Assembly (NCBI GenBank): GCA_029259415.1
Contig: JAPDIW010000040.1
Span: 1-52,235 of the forward strand
From: Archaeoglobi archaeon
GTDB lineage: Archaea > Halobacteriota > Archaeoglobi > Archaeoglobales > Archaeoglobaceae
Reading direction: 5' to 3'
DNA: 52,235 bases
Shown here one piece after another: positions 3,222 through 14,529 of this stretch; within the stretch, counting starts at the first letter, position 1; every line of letters starts with the position of its first letter. Under the pieces are notes generated by a model. The model saw only the letters and a list, made by a program, of their open reading frames with translations. It was not told where the DNA came from and made no database searches. A program made the translations under genes and the position numbers.

Positions 3222-4193
3222 TTAAAATCCTCCCTCAAGCGGGAAATGGCAAGCAAAGCTGTGCTCCTCACCCTCAAGCTCTGGCTCCTCCTTCTTGCAC
3301 TTTTCCCTCGCAAAGGGGCAGCGCGGGTGATATCTGCAACCCGACGGAATGTCAATGGGGTTAGCTATGTCACCGATAATCTCCACCTTTCTTTCCTTCT
3401 TCACGAAGCTCGGAACGGATGATAGCAAAGCAGCTGTGTAGGGATGCTTTGGCTCGTGTATTACCTCTTTCGTCTTACCCATCTCCATTATTTTTCCGAG
3501 GTACATTACCGCAATTCTGTCTCCAACGATTCTAGCCACAGACAAATCGTGGGTGATGAAGAGCATGCTCAGGTTGTACTCATCCCTGAAGGACAGCAGA
3601 AGGTCAAGAATTGCAGCTCTCAAGCTCACGTCTATCATTGAAACAGGTTCATCAGCAACGACGAACTCTGGCTTCAGAATCATCGCCCTCGCAATGGCGA
3701 CTCTCTGCCTCTGCCCTCCGCTTAGCTGGTATGGCATTCTGGTAAAGAACTGCTCTCCTGGAAGACCGACCCTGTCGAGCATCGACATGGCCATCTCTTT
3801 TGCCTCCTCATTCTCCGCAATACCGTGAATGGTAAGGGATTCGACGAGATGCTCTCCAATCTTCATCCTCGGATTGAGAGAGGCGTAGGGATCCTGAAAC
3901 ACCATCTGAATGTATCTCCTCATCTTTCTCTGTTCTTCCTCGCGAAGAGAAGTTATTTCCTTATCTTTGAAGTAAATTTTCCCGCCTGTAGGCCTTTCAA
4001 GGCCAACGATAATCCTTCCTGTTGTGGTTTTCCCACACCCGCTCTCACCTACAAGGGATAAAACTTCTCCCCTCTTCATTTCAAAGCTCACACCATCAAC
4101 TGCCCTGATGAAATCCCTTCTCCTGCTAAGCAACACCTCAAGAGCGGACTTCTGGACTGGAAAGTACTTTTTGAGGTTCTCAACTCTCAGCAT
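3222..4193 (-). CDS. dppF: Oligopeptide/dipeptide ABC transporter ATPase (DppF/OppF type)
   Basis: Cytoplasmic ATPase that powers uptake with its partner DppD; 323 residues. Walker A (GESGCGKTT), Q-loop (VFQDPYASLNPR), signature LSGGQRQRVAIARA, Walker B (FVVADEP followed by VSMIDVS) and the H-loop (FITHD) are all present. The C-terminal oligopeptide-transporter extension with cysteines (CRYHPRCPFA and a later C) is present; in this subfamily it can bind a 4Fe-4S cluster. Last gene of the four-gene minus-strand operon; the ATG lies four bases after the dppD stop, so the two are likely translationally coupled. Confidence 0.9.
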   Translation of the reverse strand: MLRVENLKKYFPVQKSALEVLLSRRRDFIRAVDGVSFEMKRGEVLSLVGESGCGKTTTGRIIVGLERPTGGKIYFKDKEITSLREEEQRKMRRYIQMVFQDPYASLNPRMKIGEHLVESLTIHGIAENEEAKEMAMSMLDRVGLPGEQFFTRMPYQLSGGQRQRVAIARAMILKPEFVVADEPVSMIDVSLRAAILDLLLSFRDEYNLSMLFITHDLSVARIVGDRIAVMYLGKIMEMGKTKEVIHEPKHPYTAALLSSVPSFVKKERKVEIIGDIANPIDIPSGCRYHPRCPFAREKCKKEEPELEGEEHSFACHFPLEGGF

Positions 4194-4197
4194 TCTA

Positions 4198-5136
4198 TCA
4201 CCCGTAGAGCCAGCACTTCACAACCCTTCCGTCAACTTCAACCTCTGGCGGCTCTTTCATACACATTTCACTGGCATTTGAACATCTTGGCCTGAACCTG
4301 CACCCTTCAGGCGGGTTTATCAAATCTGGAGGGAAGCCCGGTAAAGGCTTGATATCTTTGTCCATCCACACGTCCGGGACTGACTGAATCAGGCCTTTCG
4401 TGTAGGGGTGAAGGGGATCGTTGGTGAGCGTCTCAGCATCACCCATCTCAACCAGCCAGCCCGCATACATAACAGCAATCCGGTCGCTCCTCTCAGCAGC
4501 GAGAGCAAAGTCGTGGGTGATGAGCATTACAGCCCTCCCCTCCCTCTTCATGTCCTCCAAAAAGTCCATGATCTTCTCCTGAACTATAACATCAAGAGCC
4601 GTAGTGGGTTCATCAGCGATTAAAAGCTTGGGATTCAGGCTTATGGCCATCGCAATCATAACCCTCTGCCTCTGTCCACCGCTGAGCTGATGGGGATATG
4701 AGTCGACTCTTTCAGGCTGTAAGCCTACTTTCTCAAGCATCTCTCTTGCCATCTGCCACGCTTCCTTCTTCGTCACATCCATGTGCTCCATTATCGTTTC
4801 TGAAATCTGATCCCCCACCTTTTCGAGGGGGTCAAGGCTTGTCATCGGGTTCTGAAAGACCATACCTATCTTGCTTCCCCTGATTTTTCTCATCTCTTCA
4901 TCACTTAAAGAAAGCAAATCCACGCCGTCGAAAGTTATTTTACCTCCCGAAATCTCACCGGGTGGGTCAATCAGCCTCATAACCGAGTGAGCAAGAGTTG
5001 ATTTACCACAACCGCTCTCCCCTACAATCGAAACGAACTCACCCTTATTTATGGACATCGTGACGTTATCCACAGCCCTCACAACCCCTCTGCGTGTCCT
5101 GAAGACTGTCGTAAGCTTTTCAATCTCCAGCAGCAT
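4198..5136 (-). CDS. dppD: Oligopeptide/dipeptide ABC transporter ATPase (DppD/OppD type)
   Basis: First of the two nucleotide-binding subunits, 312 residues. Walker A GESGCGKST, Q-loop VFQNPMTSLDP, signature LSGGQRQRVMIAMA, Walker B LLIADEPTTALD and H-loop LITHD are intact. The C-terminal CRFRPRCSNAS region matches the oligopeptide/dipeptide C-terminal domain. Its ATG shares one base with the dppC stop codon (base 5136), an overlap typical of co-translated subunits. Together with dppF it would form the heterodimeric motor of the importer. Confidence 0.9.
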   Translation of the reverse strand: MLLEIEKLTTVFRTRRGVVRAVDNVTMSINKGEFVSIVGESGCGKSTLAHSVMRLIDPPGEISGGKITFDGVDLLSLSDEEMRKIRGSKIGMVFQNPMTSLDPLEKVGDQISETIMEHMDVTKKEAWQMAREMLEKVGLQPERVDSYPHQLSGGQRQRVMIAMAISLNPKLLIADEPTTALDVIVQEKIMDFLEDMKREGRAVMLITHDFALAAERSDRIAVMYAGWLVEMGDAETLTNDPLHPYTKGLIQSVPDVWMDKDIKPLPGFPPDLINPPEGCRFRPRCSNASEMCMKEPPEVEVDGRVVKCWLYG

Positions 5137-5996
5137 TATCTCTCCCTCCCCATTGCGTATATCTCGCTAAGCCCCTCTCCGACCAGCGCAAAGCCCAATG
5201 AGAGCAACATCACCATAAGCCCCGGAAAGGTAATCATCCACCAGTAGCCTGCTGGCAGGTATGGCCTGCCTGAGGCGAGTTCAAAGCCCCAGTCCGGTGT
5301 CGGAGCGCTAACAATGAAACCTAGAAAGCTCAATCCTGCCTCAGTAAGAATTGCATCTGCAACGCTCAGGGAAAAAACGACTACAAGGGTCGGAATGAGG
5401 TTCGGGAAGATGTACTTCCTCATTATTCTCCAGTCACTCGCCCCCGTTGCCTTCGCCGCCTCTACAAAAAGCTGGGATTTGATGCTTAAGGTCTGTCCTC
5501 TTATCATCCTGAAGTATGTAGGGATGTAAACCACAGATATGGCAACAACAGCATTAAACACGCTTGGACCCAGCACTGCGGCGATTGCGATAGCCAAAAT
5601 CAGCCCAGGAAATGCGTACATGCTGTCCATCAGCATTGAAAGGACTCTATCAAGCTTACCACCAAAATAACCCGAAATTAAGCCGATTGGAACCCCAATA
5701 ACCGTAGATACAAGTGAGGCTGAGAGAACGACGGAGAGAACAACTCTTGAGCCGAAAATAATTCTTGAAAAAATGTCTCTGCCGAGGTTGTCTGTCCCCA
5801 TAATGTGCTCAGGACTTGGGGGCTGGAGAACTTCCTTCCCCGATTTTATTGGGTCATATGGAGCGATGAATGGGGCAAAAATCGCCATTAAAGCAACAAT
5901 TGTAATTATCGCGATTCCCGAAATGACCATATACCTTCCCTCAGCCTCAGGAAGGAAGCTGAATATCGTCGTTGCCAGATTTCTGACCTCTGCCAT
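5136..5996 (-). CDS. dppC: Oligopeptide/dipeptide ABC transporter permease (DppC type)
   Basis: Integral membrane permease, 286 residues. A first transmembrane segment at about residues 24-45 is followed by a loop with the DppC-family landmark HIMGTDNLGRDIFSRI, then five more hydrophobic segments. The EAA loop that docks onto the ATPase is seen as EAAKATGASDWRIMRKYIFPN. It starts nine bases after the dppB stop. The partner permease is dppB. Confidence 0.9.
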   Translation of the reverse strand: MAEVRNLATTIFSFLPEAEGRYMVISGIAIITIVALMAIFAPFIAPYDPIKSGKEVLQPPSPEHIMGTDNLGRDIFSRIIFGSRVVLSVVLSASLVSTVIGVPIGLISGYFGGKLDRVLSMLMDSMYAFPGLILAIAIAAVLGPSVFNAVVAISVVYIPTYFRMIRGQTLSIKSQLFVEAAKATGASDWRIMRKYIFPNLIPTLVVVFSLSVADAILTEAGLSFLGFIVSAPTPDWGFELASGRPYLPAGYWWMITFPGLMVMLLSLGFALVGEGLSEIYAMGRER

Positions 5997-6005
5997 TACA
6001 TCACC

Positions 6006-7016
6006 TCAGTACCTTATCCTTGGATCCAACAGTGCGTAAATCACATCCACCAGGAGACTTATCAAAGCAACAAAGACCGCATAGAAGACAATAGCCCCTT
6101 GCACAGAAGTATAGTCCCTGTACTCTATTCTTTCAATCAGGAACGTTCCCATCCCCGGCCATGAAAATGTTGATTCCGTAAGCACCGCTCCAGCCAGCAG
6201 AATGGCAAATTGCAGTCCCATGAGCGTGACTACGGGGATGAATGCGTTCTTCATCGCGTGAAACACAACTTTCCTGTTCCTAACTCCCCTCGCTCTGTAA
6301 GCTTTTACAAAATCCTGGCTGAGAACATCAATCAGGTTGTTCCTAAGAAGCCTCGTATAGGCTCCTGAGAGAACAATTCCTAAGGTTAAAGCTGGAAGGG
6401 CAAGATGGGCAAGAGCATCAACTAAAGAATTAATGTTGAGTGTTAAAATACTATCAACAACATAAAGACCGGTAATAGTTTCGGGAGTGTTGCCGGGAGT
6501 TATTCTACCACCAATCGGCAAAATCTTGAGATAAACACCAAAAAGCATCTGCAGAAGCATTCCGAACCATGGAATGAAGAGTGTGTACGCGACGATGCTG
6601 TAAATCCTCATTCCCGAGTCGACCTTGCTGCCTCTCCTGAAGGCTGCAATGGATCCGGTGGCAACTCCTATCAGAACGCTCAAAACGAAGCCAAATATTG
6701 TAAGCTCAAGCGTGGCAGGAAAGTGATCCATGATTTCCGCAATTACAGGCCTCTTTCCCCATATCATTGATTTCCCAAGATCTCCCGTAAAGACTCCTCT
6801 CAGGTAATCAATGTATTGCTCATGGTATGGCTTGTCCAGGCCTGCTTCGTGGCGCATTTTCTGGAGAATCTCTTCGGGAACTTTCTGACCAACCATCGCA
6901 GTTATAGGGTCGCCAGGAATGATACGGAGTATGAGGAAAACGATTGTCAGCAGTATTAGCACCGTCGGGATTACCATTAAAAACCTTGTTATTATGTAAG
7001 CCGGAAGTGACGACAT
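6006..7016 (-). CDS. dppB: Oligopeptide/dipeptide ABC transporter permease (DppB type)
   Basis: First gene of the minus-strand operon, 336 residues. N-terminal transmembrane helix (residues about 7-29) is followed by the DppB landmark RIIPGDPITAMVG and five further helices. The EAA motif region AYRARGVRNRKVVFHAMKNA is present. The gene starts 122 bases from the divergent binding-protein gene, so both transcription units share one control region containing an inverted repeat at 7107-7125. Confidence 0.9.
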   Translation of the reverse strand: MSSLPAYIITRFLMVIPTVLILLTIVFLILRIIPGDPITAMVGQKVPEEILQKMRHEAGLDKPYHEQYIDYLRGVFTGDLGKSMIWGKRPVIAEIMDHFPATLELTIFGFVLSVLIGVATGSIAAFRRGSKVDSGMRIYSIVAYTLFIPWFGMLLQMLFGVYLKILPIGGRITPGNTPETITGLYVVDSILTLNINSLVDALAHLALPALTLGIVLSGAYTRLLRNNLIDVLSQDFVKAYRARGVRNRKVVFHAMKNAFIPVVTLMGLQFAILLAGAVLTESTFSWPGMGTFLIERIEYRDYTSVQGAIVFYAVFVALISLLVDVIYALLDPRIRY

Positions 7017-7106
7017 CGGATACGAGTGATGTGCTTGGCTTAAAAATTTATCCCTTAGGTGAAGAAAGAATGATTAAATAAATTTTTGCCAGTTGTTTTC
7101 AAGATA

Positions 7107-7125
7107 GTGTTATATATCATAACAC
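7107..7125 (+). promoter_or_regulatory. TATA box inside a perfect inverted repeat (candidate operator) for the binding-protein gene
   Basis: The arms GTGTTAT (7107-7113) and ATAACAC (7119-7125) are perfect reverse complements with a five-base spacer. The TATA element (TTATATAT, 7110-7117) lies within the repeat and its centre is about 26 bases before the ATG at 7139, so the transcript should be leaderless. A repressor bound here would block TBP directly; the identity of such a regulator is not visible. Confidence 0.5.
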
Positions 7126-7138
7126 GAAATTTCATAGC

Positions 7139-8710
7139 ATGAAGAAAGTGTATGTTCTGGCAATTTTAGTTGCTGCAGTAGTGCTGTTGGGCTGCGCTCA
7201 GCCGACTGAGCAACCAGCAGAAGAGGCTAAGAAGGTGAAGATCGAACTCTGGTGGACACCAACTCACTATGGTGACACGGAGAAGGATCTCGCTCAGGTA
7301 CTCAAAGAGCAGCTTGAGGCCACTGGAATGATTGAAGTTGAGTTGAAGAGTGCCGAGTGGTCTACCTACGTTGACTACGCAAGAAAGAGCATGATGATGG
7401 CTTCTCTCTTCGGATGGTATCCAGACTACCTCGATCCTGATGATTACACCTCACCCTTCCTGAAGTGCACCGCAAACAACTGGCTCGGCTATCCTTACTG
7501 TGACGAGGAAATGGATCAGCTACTGGAGCAGGCTTCAGTAGCAACCACGATGGAGGAGAGAGAGCAGCTTTACAAGCAAGTACAGCAGAAGCTTGCCGAG
7601 GATGCTCCAATCATTCCATTAGTCCAGGGCAAGCTGACCATAGTTGCGAAGGATGCCATTAAGGGAATAACACTCGACCCAACAATGATTTTCAGGTACT
7701 ACCTTGTTTACTCAGAAGATGGGAAAGACACGATAACTATTGGCGTGACGGACAAGATTACAGACCTCGACCCATCCAACGCCTACGACTTCTACACCTG
7801 GGAGATACTGAACAACATCATGGGAGGATTGGTGAGATACAAGCCCGGTACAACGGAGCTTGAGCCTTACCTCGCTGAGAGCTGGAATGTAAGTGATGAC
7901 GGACTTGTCTACACCTTCAAACTAAGAGAGGACTTGAAGTTCGCCGATGGCACACCGTGCAAGGCTCAGGACGTTGTGAGGAGCATTAAGAGAGTCATGA
8001 AAATACAGGGAGACCCATCTTGGCTCGTTACAGACTTCGTTGAGGATGTAGAGGCAGTTGACGACTACACTGTCAAGTTCACGCTCAAGAAGCCAGCGGC
8101 CTACTTCATAGCGCTGCTCGCAACTCCGCCATACTTCCCGGTCCATCCAGCTTACAAGGCTGACGAAATCGATACCGACCAGACTGCAGGTGGAGTTGGG
8201 CCATACAAGATAGTCGAGTGGAAGAGAGATCAGGAGTTAATTCTCGAAGCCAACCCGAACTTCTTCGGAGATCAGCCAATGACCAAGAGAATCGTCATTA
8301 AGTTCTACAAGGATTCCACAACGCTCAGACTGGCGGTAGAAGGAGGAGAAGTGGACATCGCCTGGAGAACTCTTGCACCAATCGATATTGAGTCTCTAAA
8401 GGAGAAAGAGGGGCTGCAGGTCATCGAGGCTCCGGGTGGATTCATCAGATATCTAGTGCTCAACGCCAATGAAAGCACAGACTACCCGACCAAGAACATT
8501 TACGTCAGAAAGGCAATTGCAGCAGCAATTGACAGAGAAGATATTGTCCAGAGAGTCTACAGAGGAACTGTGGAGCCGCTCTACTCCCTCGTGCCCATCG
8601 GAATGTGGAGCCACGAGGACGTGTTCAAGGATATGTACGGTGACGGCAACATCGAACTCGCCAAGGAGTACTTGAATAAGTACTTTGAGGAGGTTGAATC
8701 TTCAAAATAA
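7139..8710 (+). CDS. dppA: Substrate-binding lipoprotein of the dipeptide ABC transporter, circularly permuted
   Basis: Extracellular family-5 substrate-binding protein that would deliver peptides or similar ligands to DppBCDF. A signal peptide ends in the lipobox LLGC with Cys19, so it is probably membrane-anchored. The order of its parts is abnormal. Residues about 33-193 (from KIELWW through FGWYPDYLDPDDYTSPF to DPTMIFRYYLVYSE) match the part that normally forms the C-terminal third of DppA/OppA. Residues about 197-523 (DTITIGVTDKITDLDPSNA, LAESWNVSDDGLVYTF, GVGPYKIVEW, YVRKAIAAAIDREDIV, ending at AKEYLNKYF) match the normal N-terminal two thirds. The total (523 residues) is that of one normal protein, with nothing missing or duplicated. 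The arrangement is read directly; fold and function are inferred from the family and the neighbouring operon. Confidence 0.88.
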   Translation: MKKVYVLAILVAAVVLLGCAQPTEQPAEEAKKVKIELWWTPTHYGDTEKDLAQVLKEQLEATGMIEVELKSAEWSTYVDYARKSMMMASLFGWYPDYLDPDDYTSPFLKCTANNWLGYPYCDEEMDQLLEQASVATTMEEREQLYKQVQQKLAEDAPIIPLVQGKLTIVAKDAIKGITLDPTMIFRYYLVYSEDGKDTITIGVTDKITDLDPSNAYDFYTWEILNNIMGGLVRYKPGTTELEPYLAESWNVSDDGLVYTFKLREDLKFADGTPCKAQDVVRSIKRVMKIQGDPSWLVTDFVEDVEAVDDYTVKFTLKKPAAYFIALLATPPYFPVHPAYKADEIDTDQTAGGVGPYKIVEWKRDQELILEANPNFFGDQPMTKRIVIKFYKDSTTLRLAVEGGEVDIAWRTLAPIDIESLKEKEGLQVIEAPGGFIRYLVLNANESTDYPTKNIYVRKAIAAAIDREDIVQRVYRGTVEPLYSLVPIGMWSHEDVFKDMYGDGNIELAKEYLNKYFEEVESSK

Positions 8711-8769: not shown

Positions 8770-9864
8770 CTCAGTAATTTAAACTAGGGTCTTCCCCACA
8801 TCACCACTCTGACAACCTCTGAATGAACCTCTTTTCCCTGAAACCGAGCTTAATCGTCATCCCCGTCAGCAGGACAGAAAGAGAGCACCTCTCTCTCACT
8901 GGCTCGTAACCATAACAGTGCAATTGCTTCAAACTGAAAGCTTCTTTTCCCAGCTTTATCACGTCCTCTATTATGCTCCTCAATTTTTTCAGATCCTCCT
9001 TTAATCCTTCAAACAACCTTTTAACGAGCTTTCTGTACCTTTTCTTCTCCTTCTCTACGTTCTTGGAGTTAAAGATGAAGAGAGGATAGCTTATCATCCC
9101 CTCAAGCTTCTCTAATCTGAAATTCTTCCTCGGAATAATCAGAGGCACCACACCGTACCTTATCCCGATTAAGTAGTTCTTGTAGGCGTAGAAGCCCCTA
9201 TCCATAATTATTGAATCTCCAAACCTGATTAGCCTCTTTCTCTTAAGCATTTCCAGAATTAGAGGGTAAATCCTGCTTTCATGGACATTTGCTGGATAAA
9301 CGTGGAAGAACAAGGGCGTTAAAGTTCCGTATTCAATCAGAATCATCATCTTCATATCCAAGAAGAATCCTTTCGTTGAATAACCCCATTTGTAAGGCTT
9401 ATTGTTTAAATCTTTCTTTCTGAAGGGGTTTAGATCGAGGGATATATCAGTCCAGTCTAATATTAAAATGGATGGCTTATTTCGCCTTTTATTTGAATTA
9501 GCATTAAGAATTGAGAAGACAAAGCTTGTAAATTGGTCTGCTTCGAATTCTGACATGAATGAGTAGACTGATCTCAATTTAACCTCCTCTTCTATCCTCA
9601 AGAACTTTCTCAGCTCTAAACGCTTATTTACCTCGTTAACAGCATAAGAAATCTCAACTCCAAAAAACATTGCCAGAATTATGACTTTAAGAATTTTTAT
9701 AGCTTTATTGATTGGCGTAATCTTATTCCTTGCCAGAGCTTTCTTAGTTTCCCTTGATTCAAGCTTATCAACGATTTTCGATAGGATCTCCCATTTCTCG
9801 TCTCCTTTCACTGGAACAATAGGTAATTTCACCTTAATCCCCCAATAAAGCTAAAATCACTAAG
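8770..9864 (-). mobile_element. Insertion sequence of about 1.1 kb with one transposase gene
   Basis: The transposase gene is flanked by imperfect inverted repeats: CTCAGTAATTTAAACT at 8770-8785 and, on the other strand, CTTAGTGATTTTAGCT at 9849-9864 (12 of 16 bases match). The resulting size of about 1.1 kb is that of known single-gene IS elements in Archaeoglobus. I could not find a convincing target-site duplication next to these ends, so the limits are approximate. It lies between the ABC transporter and tRNA-Ala. Confidence 0.5.
8801..9832 (-). CDS. DDE transposase (IS4/IS5-like group)
   Basis: Full-length transposase of 343 residues with a GTG start. A first catalytic Asp sits in LILDWTDIS, a second in SIIMDRGFYAYKNY (the D followed by a spaced Y and K resembles the IS4-type Y-(2)-R-(3)-E-(6)-K neighbourhood), and Glu candidates lie in the C-terminal third. 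The N-terminal third is helical and basic and would bind the terminal repeats. No frameshift or internal stop is seen, so the enzyme may be active. The exact IS family cannot be fixed without an ISfinder comparison. Confidence 0.7.
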   Translation of the reverse strand: MKLPIVPVKGDEKWEILSKIVDKLESRETKKALARNKITPINKAIKILKVIILAMFFGVEISYAVNEVNKRLELRKFLRIEEEVKLRSVYSFMSEFEADQFTSFVFSILNANSNKRRNKPSILILDWTDISLDLNPFRKKDLNNKPYKWGYSTKGFFLDMKMMILIEYGTLTPLFFHVYPANVHESRIYPLILEMLKRKRLIRFGDSIIMDRGFYAYKNYLIGIRYGVVPLIIPRKNFRLEKLEGMISYPLFIFNSKNVEKEKKRYRKLVKRLFEGLKEDLKKLRSIIEDVIKLGKEAFSLKQLHCYGYEPVRERCSLSVLLTGMTIKLGFREKRFIQRLSEW

Positions 9865-11277: not shown

Positions 11278-11482
11278 CCAAAATTATAAAAGGTATCGCA
11301 ATCTTGGCCAAAACTTGAAAAAAATCGATTCACACGGCAAAATCTACATCCCCAAGCTCATTCGAGATATCTTCCGTGGATATCGGTTTTGGGTTTATGT
11401 AGAAGGTGGAAAAATCATTCTCGATCCGATAAAGCTGGATGATTTTTCAGAGGTGAATGAGGATGAAGATCATCAAAGTTGA
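11240..11482 (+). CDS. AbrB-like DNA-binding protein 2
   Basis: 80 residues from the ATG at 11240, or 74 from the ATG at 11258, which has a purine-rich stretch (GAAGAGGG) in front. The region KIDSHGKIYIPKLIRDIFRGYRFWVYVEGGKIILDPI matches the AbrB fold (GKIYIPK, then a hydrophobic strand, G, and KIILDPI). It overlaps the end of the first AbrB-like gene and the start of the ATPase gene, so all three should be co-translated. Function beyond DNA binding is unknown. Confidence 0.6.
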   Translation: MKRAKPMTVITLDQNYKRYRNLGQNLKKIDSHGKIYIPKLIRDIFRGYRFWVYVEGGKIILDPIKLDDFSEVNEDEDHQS

Positions 11483-13541
11483 GAGAGTTGATGGTGGAGT
11501 AAGAGCTGACGTTGAAGTAAAAGGCTCATTTTTCTCAGTCCTCATCAAGAGAGATAAGAAGAGTTTTGAGATCGATTTCATTAATGATAAAAGCGAGATC
11601 TCAACAGTTCTGGCCAAAGACTGGCGAGATCCTGGGGTGAGGAAGGTTAAGCGAAAGCTGAAAGCAATCGGAATTGAGTTGAGGGAGGAGGAGGTTGAAA
11701 AGCTCTTTTCTGCATTAATCTCAAAAGGAGTTGGTCAACTCATCGAGAGTGAGGAGGATAGGAGGCAGGGAGGCGATGAGGAGGAGATTGATGAGGAGGT
11801 AAAGAGAGAGGCCGAGGAGCTTCTTAATGATCCATTTATCCTAAGGAAAGTAAAGGCGATTCTCGATAAGAGAATTGTGGGAGAAGACGATGTCAAGCTC
11901 CTCTTATTCCTCATCGCTCTCTCAAAAGATGTTGAGCCGCAGTCAACTCTTCTCGTGGCCGAATCATCAACCGGTAAGAGTTATATCACACACCAGATAG
12001 CTGAGCTTTTCACCGAAGATGTGTTGTGGTTTTCACGAGTGACGCCAGCAGCATTGGACAGATTAGGCCGAGATCTCACAGGCAAAATCCTCATAATCGA
12101 GGAGGAGGCCGGCATAAATCCAGAGGCTGAGGCCATCATTCGGGCATGGATTAGTGAGGGTAAACTCCGGTTGCTGACCACCGTCAAGGATGAGACGGGC
12201 AATATCCGAACTGAGGAAATAGAAACGACAGGAAGGCCCGTTATAATCTCAACGACCACAAAGGCGAAGATAGATGAAGAAAGGGCGACACGAATTTGGA
12301 TTTTGACACCTGACACATCGAGGGAGCAAACAAAGAGGATTTTGGAGTTTGAAGCGGCAATTGCAAGCGGACAGGTTCAAGATCTCGGAGATCGTGAGGT
12401 CGCAGTTCTCAAAGAGGCTTTAAAACAACTTAAAAACGGAGATAACGGAAAGAAGATTAACGTTCTTGTGCCTTATGCCAATAAGCTGGCCTCTCAATTT
12501 CCGGCAGATAGAACGAGGGCAAGGAGAGACTTCAAGAAGATTATCTCTCTCATTAAAGTTTCCGCCTATCTCCATCAGCGGAATAGGCCAATAATTGAGG
12601 GCGATGGTGAAAACATCATTATTGCTACTCTTGCCGACTTGAACATTGTTTGGTCCTTAATCAGAAAGTCGATCAAACCGACCTTAACAGGTCTTACGCC
12701 AACTCACGAGGAAATATTACAGGTCGCGAAAGAATACATGGAAAGAGTTGAGCTTAACGATTTTACTATCTACGACATTCTACCGTTCCTGAATTTTTCA
12801 AAATCTCGGCTACATGACCTAATCAGAGAGCTTGAAAGTTTCGGCTACATTGAGAAGGTTGATGGAGGGCCTGGAAAGAGAAACCGCTATCGAATTCTTG
12901 ATTCGGTAGAAAAGAAAGCTGAATTTACGACAATTTACGGTGGAAATTCAGAGCCGTTTTTCAGCGAATCCGAGCTATCAGATTGGTTGGATAGACTCTT
13001 CCAATTTTCCAGTGAGTATCAGAAAAATATTTTTGAGAGGTTCTACTCAAATATCTACGATCCACTTTCTGATAGCGAAAAAGAAAACTCTAACAATTGT
13101 ATAGAAAAGACGGATTACTCTGAGAATGTCTTAACCGAAATAGAGGGGGAAGATAAGCTTATCGGTGTGGACTCTGAAAAAATATTTTCACAAGATGGTG
13201 TGGAAAAGTGGAAGTTTGAAACGGAGGAAGCTGATATCTCCAATTCTCCAACAGAAGAAAATGAATTTACGGCGGAAATTCGTGGAAATTCAGAAGAGAG
13301 TTCAGCAGAAAACAAGGACAATGAAGCGATTTCAAATATAGCAAATGGAGATAAAATAAAGTATGTCAGAATTAGAATGATTAAGCCTGTTCCATTCAGC
13401 AAGGAGCTAATCGGAGCGGATGGAAAGTTTTACACCTTGCCAGAGGTTGGTGAAGAGATCACTCTTCCTGAGGCCAATGCTGAGCCAATTTTGAGATATG
13501 GTTATGCCATGAAGATTGGTGGTGGTAATGATGCAGATTAA
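11457..13541 (+). CDS. AAA+/P-loop ATPase of the mobile element with winged helix and GINS-like C-terminal domain
   Basis: 694 residues, probably the replicative helicase-like or initiator ATPase of the element. Walker A is AESSTGKS (168-175) and Walker B is ILIIEEE (211-217). A sensor strand PVIISTT (261-267) and a candidate arginine finger in DEERATRIW follow. Residues about 430-475 form a winged helix (DFTIYDILPFLNFSKSRLHD, then an ELESFGYIEKV strand). A long acidic, Ser/Asn/Glu-rich linker (about 480-640) looks disordered. The last 50 residues (YVRIRMIKPVP..., IGADGKFYTLPEVGEEITLP, NAEPILRYG) resemble the B domain of archaeal GINS subunits. The start ATG follows GAGGTGA; the primase gene follows directly. 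ATPase assignment is firm, helicase role is inference, and the GINS match needs a profile search. Confidence 0.75.
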   Translation: MRMKIIKVERVDGGVRADVEVKGSFFSVLIKRDKKSFEIDFINDKSEISTVLAKDWRDPGVRKVKRKLKAIGIELREEEVEKLFSALISKGVGQLIESEEDRRQGGDEEEIDEEVKREAEELLNDPFILRKVKAILDKRIVGEDDVKLLLFLIALSKDVEPQSTLLVAESSTGKSYITHQIAELFTEDVLWFSRVTPAALDRLGRDLTGKILIIEEEAGINPEAEAIIRAWISEGKLRLLTTVKDETGNIRTEEIETTGRPVIISTTTKAKIDEERATRIWILTPDTSREQTKRILEFEAAIASGQVQDLGDREVAVLKEALKQLKNGDNGKKINVLVPYANKLASQFPADRTRARRDFKKIISLIKVSAYLHQRNRPIIEGDGENIIIATLADLNIVWSLIRKSIKPTLTGLTPTHEEILQVAKEYMERVELNDFTIYDILPFLNFSKSRLHDLIRELESFGYIEKVDGGPGKRNRYRILDSVEKKAEFTTIYGGNSEPFFSESELSDWLDRLFQFSSEYQKNIFERFYSNIYDPLSDSEKENSNNCIEKTDYSENVLTEIEGEDKLIGVDSEKIFSQDGVEKWKFETEEADISNSPTEENEFTAEIRGNSEESSAENKDNEAISNIANGDKIKYVRIRMIKPVPFSKELIGADGKFYTLPEVGEEITLPEANAEPILRYGYAMKIGGGNDAD

Positions 13542-14529
13542 AGAGGAGGCAATCCGGCAGCTTGAAGCTCACTGTAAAAGCAGATGGCCGAGGGAGTTTG
13601 GGAAGAAGCTGAAAAGAGGCTTTCATCGTAATGATAGGGTTGATTCTGCAGAAGAACTTTACAACAAGGCTGAGTTTTTCGATTTTGAAGATTGCTATTG
13701 CTCGGTTTATGCGTTCAAGGAGTGGAGTGACGAGGCGGCAATCAGAAAACAATCGGTCGTTATTGACTGTTTGGTCTTTGATTTGGATCATGCGGATCCA
13801 GTGATTGCTTTCAAAGAGGCAAAGAGGTTAATAAGATGGTGCTTTGAGCACGGCATAATTCCAAGAGTTTATTTCTCAGGCTGCAAAGGCTTCCACGTTT
13901 ACGTTGATTTTAAGCCTGTTGAGCTGAAAAATCCTGAGGCAATAAAGCGGGCTGGAGTCTATATCAAAGAGAGGCTGAAGCTCAGAACCGTTGACACGGC
14001 AATCTGGGAGCTAAATAGGGTTATCAGGTTGCCGTTTACTGTGAACACAAAAACAGGGTATAAATGCACTCCTCTCAAGGCCGATAAGATCCTCAACCTC
14101 GATTTCAACTCTGTGCTGCATTTCTGCAAGCACGGTTATTGCCAGATCGAGGTTCATGAGTCCAGAACCTTCCCCAAGTTGTTGAAGTATGAGGATTTCA
14201 GGGTAACAACCAACAAAGCCCTCAGTCTGATTCTGAAAACGAGGAGGGCCGTTAAAGGCAAAGGTAGTGGATGGAGATCAAAGAGGATTCAAGAGTATGT
14301 TGAAGCTCTCAGAAAGTATGGCCGGTTAACTGCCGATCCGGTCATCGCGAAACGGCATGAGGATGAACATAAAGCAAGGCTGCACTTGAACTTTTTGATG
14401 ATTGAGGCCGGTTACTCGGATGAGGAGATTAAGGAGGTTTTCAAGCTCTGCGAAGACTATAGGCCGGAGATTGTAGAGTATCAGGTTAGATACAACCGGA
14501 ATTGGCTGAAAAGGAGGGTTGAAGCATGA
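13528..14529 (+). CDS. Primase of the archaeo-eukaryotic (PriS-like) type
   Basis: 333 residues from the ATG at 13528 (SD GGTGGT just before; the frame is open to a TTG at 13516). It would make primers for replication of the element. Motif I is FDLDHAD with Asp85 and Asp87; motif II is SGCKGFHVYVD with Ser117 and His123; the NRVIRLPFTVN segment matches the conserved R-x-P region of PriS-like proteins. The C-terminal third is helical with many Arg/Lys residues. It lies directly after the ATPase gene (their reading frames overlap by 14 bases), the common primase-helicase pairing in archaeal plasmids and viruses. Length is close to that of cellular PriS, but zinc-knuckle cysteines are not evident. 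Confidence 0.75.
   Translation: MMQIKEEAIRQLEAHCKSRWPREFGKKLKRGFHRNDRVDSAEELYNKAEFFDFEDCYCSVYAFKEWSDEAAIRKQSVVIDCLVFDLDHADPVIAFKEAKRLIRWCFEHGIIPRVYFSGCKGFHVYVDFKPVELKNPEAIKRAGVYIKERLKLRTVDTAIWELNRVIRLPFTVNTKTGYKCTPLKADKILNLDFNSVLHFCKHGYCQIEVHESRTFPKLLKYEDFRVTTNKALSLILKTRRAVKGKGSGWRSKRIQEYVEALRKYGRLTADPVIAKRHEDEHKARLHLNFLMIEAGYSDEEIKEVFKLCEDYRPEIVEYQVRYNRNWLKRRVEA

Follow-up and report, generated by a model that had tools for sequence, protein, structure and literature searches.

A probably functional, circularly permuted substrate-binding lipoprotein beside dppBCDF in an Archaeoglobus lineage, with permuted relatives in other archaea and alphaproteobacteria

The permuted gene and its locus

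The window, the whole stretch of 52,235 nucleotides that was analysed, carries an ORF that encodes a substrate-binding lipoprotein of family 5 (SBP_bac_5, cluster C) and lies divergently to a dppBCDF gene set (Table 1). From its sequence, membership in this fold family is clear; the whole ORF matched Pfam SBP_bac_5 (PF00496) with an E value of 1.2e-91 and 308 bits, in two stretches. The export signal, the lipobox and the neighbouring ABC importer genes, by which a SBP_bac_5 protein is recognised, are all present.

Table 1. Features of the permuted gene and of the adjacent transporter genes (positions in the window)
Feature	Position	Strand	Basis or match
Permuted SBP_bac_5 lipoprotein gene, 523 aa	7139..8710	+	
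Residues 1-19, signal peptide with lipobox LLGC; Cys19 presumably lipidated	7139..7195	+	Lipobox read by eye
Junction 1, the first linker (..PAEEAKKV), which puts the C-terminal third straight after the lipobox	7196..7237	+	
Residues 34-193, the C-terminal third of the fold, now placed first	7238..7717	+	Pfam 295-367; DppA 345-496
Asp96 (GWYPD), equivalent of E. coli DppA D436	7424..7426	+	Alignment
Second linker VYSEDGK, residues 190-196, from old C-terminus to old N-terminus; junction 2	7706..7726	+	
Residues 197-516, the N-terminal two thirds of the fold, now placed second	7727..8686	+	Pfam 1-275
New C-terminal tail and stop	8687..8710	+	
dppB permease, divergent neighbour	6006..7016	-	
dppC permease	5136..5996	-	
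dppD ATPase	4198..5136	-	
dppF ATPase	3222..4193	-	

Order of the two parts of the protein

The initial annotation had claimed that the C-terminal third of the protein comes directly after the lipobox and that the N-terminal two thirds follow, and this order was borne out by the Pfam, DppE and DppA alignments. When aligned separately to SBP_bac_5, residues 34–193 matched the end of the model (profile positions 295–367, E 1.3e-11) and residues 197–523 its beginning (positions 1–275, E 3.6e-80), both above the curated cut-off, and hence the model positions do not run in the normal N-to-C order. In phmmer searches against PDB, residues 20–355 of Bacillus subtilis DppE aligned with residues 195–514 of the query and residues 378–510 with 48–182, while residues 34–327 of Escherichia coli DppA (1dpp) aligned with 229–502 and residues 345–496 with the C-terminal third. 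Since the two segments of DppE and DppA align in reversed order, the break is placed near mature residues 328–345 of DppA. As had also been stated, nothing is duplicated and the total length is normal, any loss or duplication being limited to linker residues.

Permuted and unpermuted relatives in Archaeoglobus

A survey of Archaeoglobales homologues, which the initial annotation had proposed, revealed the permuted order end to end in two relatives, G004 (94% identical) and G001 (91% identical), the latter being a single closed contig of 2,178,400 bp. The window genome, a draft, consists of 104 contigs, so that an assembly error or a chimera might be suspected as the source of the order. However, two independent relatives, one of them with a closed chromosome, carry the same order, the frame is open throughout, and the junction residues of the three permuted genes have diverged as coding sequence does; thus, we rejected an artefact.

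The normal order was found in four other genomes of the genus (G002, G003, G005 and G006), at 83–89% identity per part, and in all the orthologues that were checked in the rest of Archaeoglobaceae and beyond. Through the orthologues at 83–89% identity, the gene shows what marks a natural permutant, which is the same segments in reversed order relative to an unpermuted homologue. In a tree built from the parts restored to normal order, the three permuted proteins formed one clade (SH-aLRT 100) nested inside the genus clade (SH-aLRT 99). It is most likely that the permutation in this Archaeoglobus lineage is young and goes back to one event before the A. fulgidus-like species diverged.

The position of the gene differs as well. 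The permuted gene is adjacent to dppBCDF and divergent from dppB in all three permuted genomes, and in most of Archaeoglobaceae the binding protein gene heads an SBP-dppBCDF operon, while in the four unpermuted genomes of the genus it is detached from dppBCDF. Relocation and permutation may be linked in Archaeoglobus, a point which we counted against the best explanation. In two of the unpermuted genomes (L050 in G002 and L051 in G003), the gene adjoins what we read as a gene for a DUF1646-like membrane protein; infB and thioredoxin-like genes lie close by.

Selection on the permuted gene

Between the permuted species, dN was 0.02–0.07 against a dS of about 0.3–1.4 in both parts, and dN/dS was roughly 0.02–0.07 in both parts across the three species, with dppB in the same range for both measures. 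We searched the window genome (G000), G001 and G004 for an unpermuted or other copy of the binding protein and found none; in G001, there was no other SBP_bac_5 at all. Strong purifying selection together with the lack of a normal copy in the permuted genomes indicates that the permuted protein is in use, and on this evidence of selection it would be functional. The transposase gene directly downstream in the window genome could suggest a duplicate that is decaying or has no function, but such low dN/dS values in both parts and in three species, an intact lipobox and frame, and no other copy of the protein in the genome make decay very improbable. Given the unpermuted orthologues at 83–89% identity, the low dN/dS and the absence of an unpermuted copy from the permuted genomes, we regard the gene as a young, functional and natural circular permutant.

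Fold, ligand site and lipid anchor

The AlphaFold2 model of the permuted protein reached a pLDDT of 89.6 and a pTM of 0.84. Foldseek matches to cluster C proteins in PDB had mostly 290–390 columns with TM of about 0.4–0.56, and covered mostly the N part because the alignment is sequential only; none of the best 50 matches covered the model in the model's own order. This result fits the permuted topology, and does not prove the overall fold.

Residues 328–345 of DppA (mature numbering) presumably lie in the C-lobe. The new ends would then be at an outer turn between helix and strand in the C-lobe, with the old N-lobe ends joined by a short linker, so that the hinge crossings should be unchanged. 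The initial annotation had explained the permutation by the two chain crossings of one lobe, which is not needed, since going by the mapping on DppA these crossings stay as before. It had also proposed that the new termini alter which lobe is tethered to the membrane. With the new ends in the C-lobe, the lipid anchor would indeed sit there instead of on the N-lobe; this part of the proposal would stand as a consequence here, but not as a common cause of permutation (see below).

In E. coli DppA, D436 binds the amino group of the peptide and R383 its carboxylate (PMC12136057). The equivalent of D436 is kept as D96 in the window protein and R383 falls in a two-residue alignment gap; thus, the DppA pair is incomplete and a dipeptide ligand is not assured. 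The equivalog models of NCBIfam did not reach their cut-offs, with 162 bits against 1005 for DppA and 186 of 393 bits for NikA, and OppA likewise below its cut-off. The ligand is probably a peptide or a related amine.

The window protein resembles DppA, OppA, NikA and DppE in both Pfam segments, length, signal peptide and lipobox, adjacent dppBCDF and the amino-binding Asp, but differs from them in being permuted and in lacking the carboxylate-binding Arg at the DppA position. We consider, with a probability of about 0.9, that the adjacent DppBCDF peptide importer uses this circularly permuted lipoprotein as its working substrate-binding component. The protein would have the usual fold of cluster C binding proteins; in the N-lobe, a linker of 4–7 residues would connect the old ends, and the new ends would be in the helix-strand turn of the C-lobe. 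Anchored through the C-lobe, it would still close on its ligand, dock on DppB/DppC and deliver the ligand as usual.

Junctions and origin of the permutation

In the unpermuted genes, the lipobox is followed by a linker ending in (K)EEVKA, the N part from ITIGV to AGYSEDNK, and the C part from LKLELWW to YYLVYETS and the stop. In the permuted gene of G001, the linker ends in EEAKK and is followed by the C part from LKIELWW to YYLVYSE, then EQK, and the N part from DTITIGV to AGYSE and the stop, which is the exact point where the unpermuted relatives run on with DNKLKLELWW. Normal genes thus have one EExK linker, whereas G001 and G004 have two, EEAKK ahead of the C part and EEQKD ahead of the N part; at the second site, the window gene has EDGKD. 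G001 encodes the terminal serine by TCC, similar to the TCN of the internal VYSE, while normal genes with a boundary serine use AGY.

Duplication followed by deletion is a recognised model of circular permutation, and a doubled EExK linker is expected if a tandem duplication was followed by partial loss of each copy. Another archaeon carries an in-frame N-C-N-C fusion of SBP_bac_5 (L100, G134:C18, ORF 4310–7390) of 1026 aa, whose copies are 68% identical, which shows that a duplication intermediate can exist in nature. The duplicated linker footprint and this natural fusion agree with the model, whereas in the Archaeoglobus lineage itself the intermediate was not found. We infer an in-frame tandem duplication with later partial deletions as a fairly likely origin, in which the first copy would have lost its first two thirds, and the second its signal peptide and final third. 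Both arguments, from the linker and from the serine codons, concern a few residues of low-complexity linker sequence.

Alternatively, the C segment could have been excised, as a circle or a fragment, at YSE repeats and re-inserted between the lipobox and the N part, with no full-length duplicate. Such a cut-and-paste event takes two steps, fewer than duplication plus deletions; it would account for YSE at both new junctions, and the internal linker SEDGK/SEEQK resembles the ancestral N/C boundary SEDNK. On the other hand, the YSE repeat is three residues only, a second copy of the lipoprotein EExK linker matches the internal linker equally well, and the TCN and AGY serine codons do not suit a terminal SE that stems from the old boundary. 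We therefore consider cut-and-paste unlikely, and favour the tandem duplication.

Other permuted members of the family

Separate profiles of the N part and the C part were used to detect permuted members, and three cut types were found. Type A, with C before N as in the window gene, was found in L054 of G031, in all 20 of the haloarchaeal loci checked, in Halalkalicoccus jeotgali (WP_238532955.1) and in alphaproteobacteria (WP_113156578.1, WP_013385786.1 and WP_117397031.1). In a survey with a haloarchaeal query, collinear type A matches amounted to at least 127 loci in at least 75 of the 145 haloarchaeal genomes. L054 (G031:C2:103732-105471), from Archaeoglobaceae, is 34% identical, has a Sec-like signal with no lipobox and a C-terminal PGF-CTERM anchor, and lies alongside dppBCDF-like genes on the same strand.

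Type B is cut between the halves of the C part (C2-N-C1) and comprises proteins of 706–766 aa from two Archaeoglobaceae genera, encoded in an operon with dppBCDF (L055–L060, in G008, G009, G010, G012, G013 and G026). In type C, the cut lies between two helices within the C part's second half; this type was found in 7 of 78 haloarchaeal genomes, and its loci (L094, L095, L097, L099 and L155–L157) have unpermuted relatives at 59–67% identity. Types B and C look normal to Pfam because its model does not reach the second half of the C part. Wherever the gene neighbourhood of a permuted member was examined, dpp-like transporter genes were adjacent. The window gene is hence not a lone oddity.

The tree requires at least five changes of order; as its deep nodes are weak, five is the count for this tree and sampling. 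The cut is the same, in the helix-strand turn before the KIELWW strand, in the A. fulgidus-like proteins, L054 and the haloarchaeal and alphaproteobacterial proteins, as if all type A proteins came from one ancient permutant and the Archaeoglobus copy had been acquired from that lineage. However, the fulgidus clade is nested at 83–89% identity among unpermuted Archaeoglobus orthologues, and AU tests rejected the joining of the fulgidus clade with the old type A clade (p 0.0001), of L054 with the old type A clade (p 0.004) and of L054 with the fulgidus clade (p 3e-35), which leaves a single origin highly improbable. The type A cut defines an old clade in haloarchaea and alphaproteobacteria, and L054 has the same cut independently.

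We tentatively propose that permutation in cluster C is recurrent and possibly adaptive, with at least five events at three cut loops, all of which map to the C-lobe, and that haloarchaea and alphaproteobacteria share an unrecognised permuted subclass, which largely escapes Pfam-based annotation.

Comparison with known permuted binding proteins

The initial annotation knew of no described natural case in the SBP_bac_5 family, and our search of the open-access literature for a published permuted SBP_bac_5 or cluster C protein likewise found none. Natural circular permutations are usually old and have no close unpermuted relative.

Tp0684 (TpMglB-2) of Treponema pallidum is a naturally permuted cluster B binding protein ('Type Ic / cluster Bc'), likewise a membrane-tethered ABC substrate-binding protein, which still binds its ligand and changes conformation (PMC4990184). 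However, it is a sugar binder of another SBP class whose permuted part matches poorly (13%), and close relatives from before and after the permutation are not described in that part of the paper (PMC4990184). Its authors suggested tethering as a driver of the permutation (PMC4990184). Tethering as a general driver is not supported here, since we looked by eye for a lipobox in the three alphaproteobacterial permuted proteins and saw none.

The two before/after pairs, in Archaeoglobus (83–89%) and in haloarchaea (59–67%), allow a direct comparison of how a two-lobed receptor folds, binds its ligand, is tethered and docks. The recurrence is more interesting than the single Archaeoglobus case; because the event recurs in one family, why the fold tolerates or favours permutation becomes testable. 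Two of the three permutation types are invisible to routine annotation, as Pfam covers part of the fold only.

Other features of the window and its genome

Directly downstream of the permuted gene, the window has a DDE transposase gene (IS4/IS5-like, 8801–9832, minus strand), which is not there in G001, and from this gene onward the window differs from the relatives. A 694-aa ORF (11457–13541, plus strand), with no Pfam or NCBIfam match, adjoins an ORF (13516–14529, plus strand) that weakly matches the small subunit of archaeal primase; the two look like part of an integrated element. A second transporter in the window's own genome (L062, G000:C19:1-8000) seems to be decaying, since its binding protein ORF is shortened at the N-terminus (412 aa) and its permease gene is interrupted by an in-frame stop.
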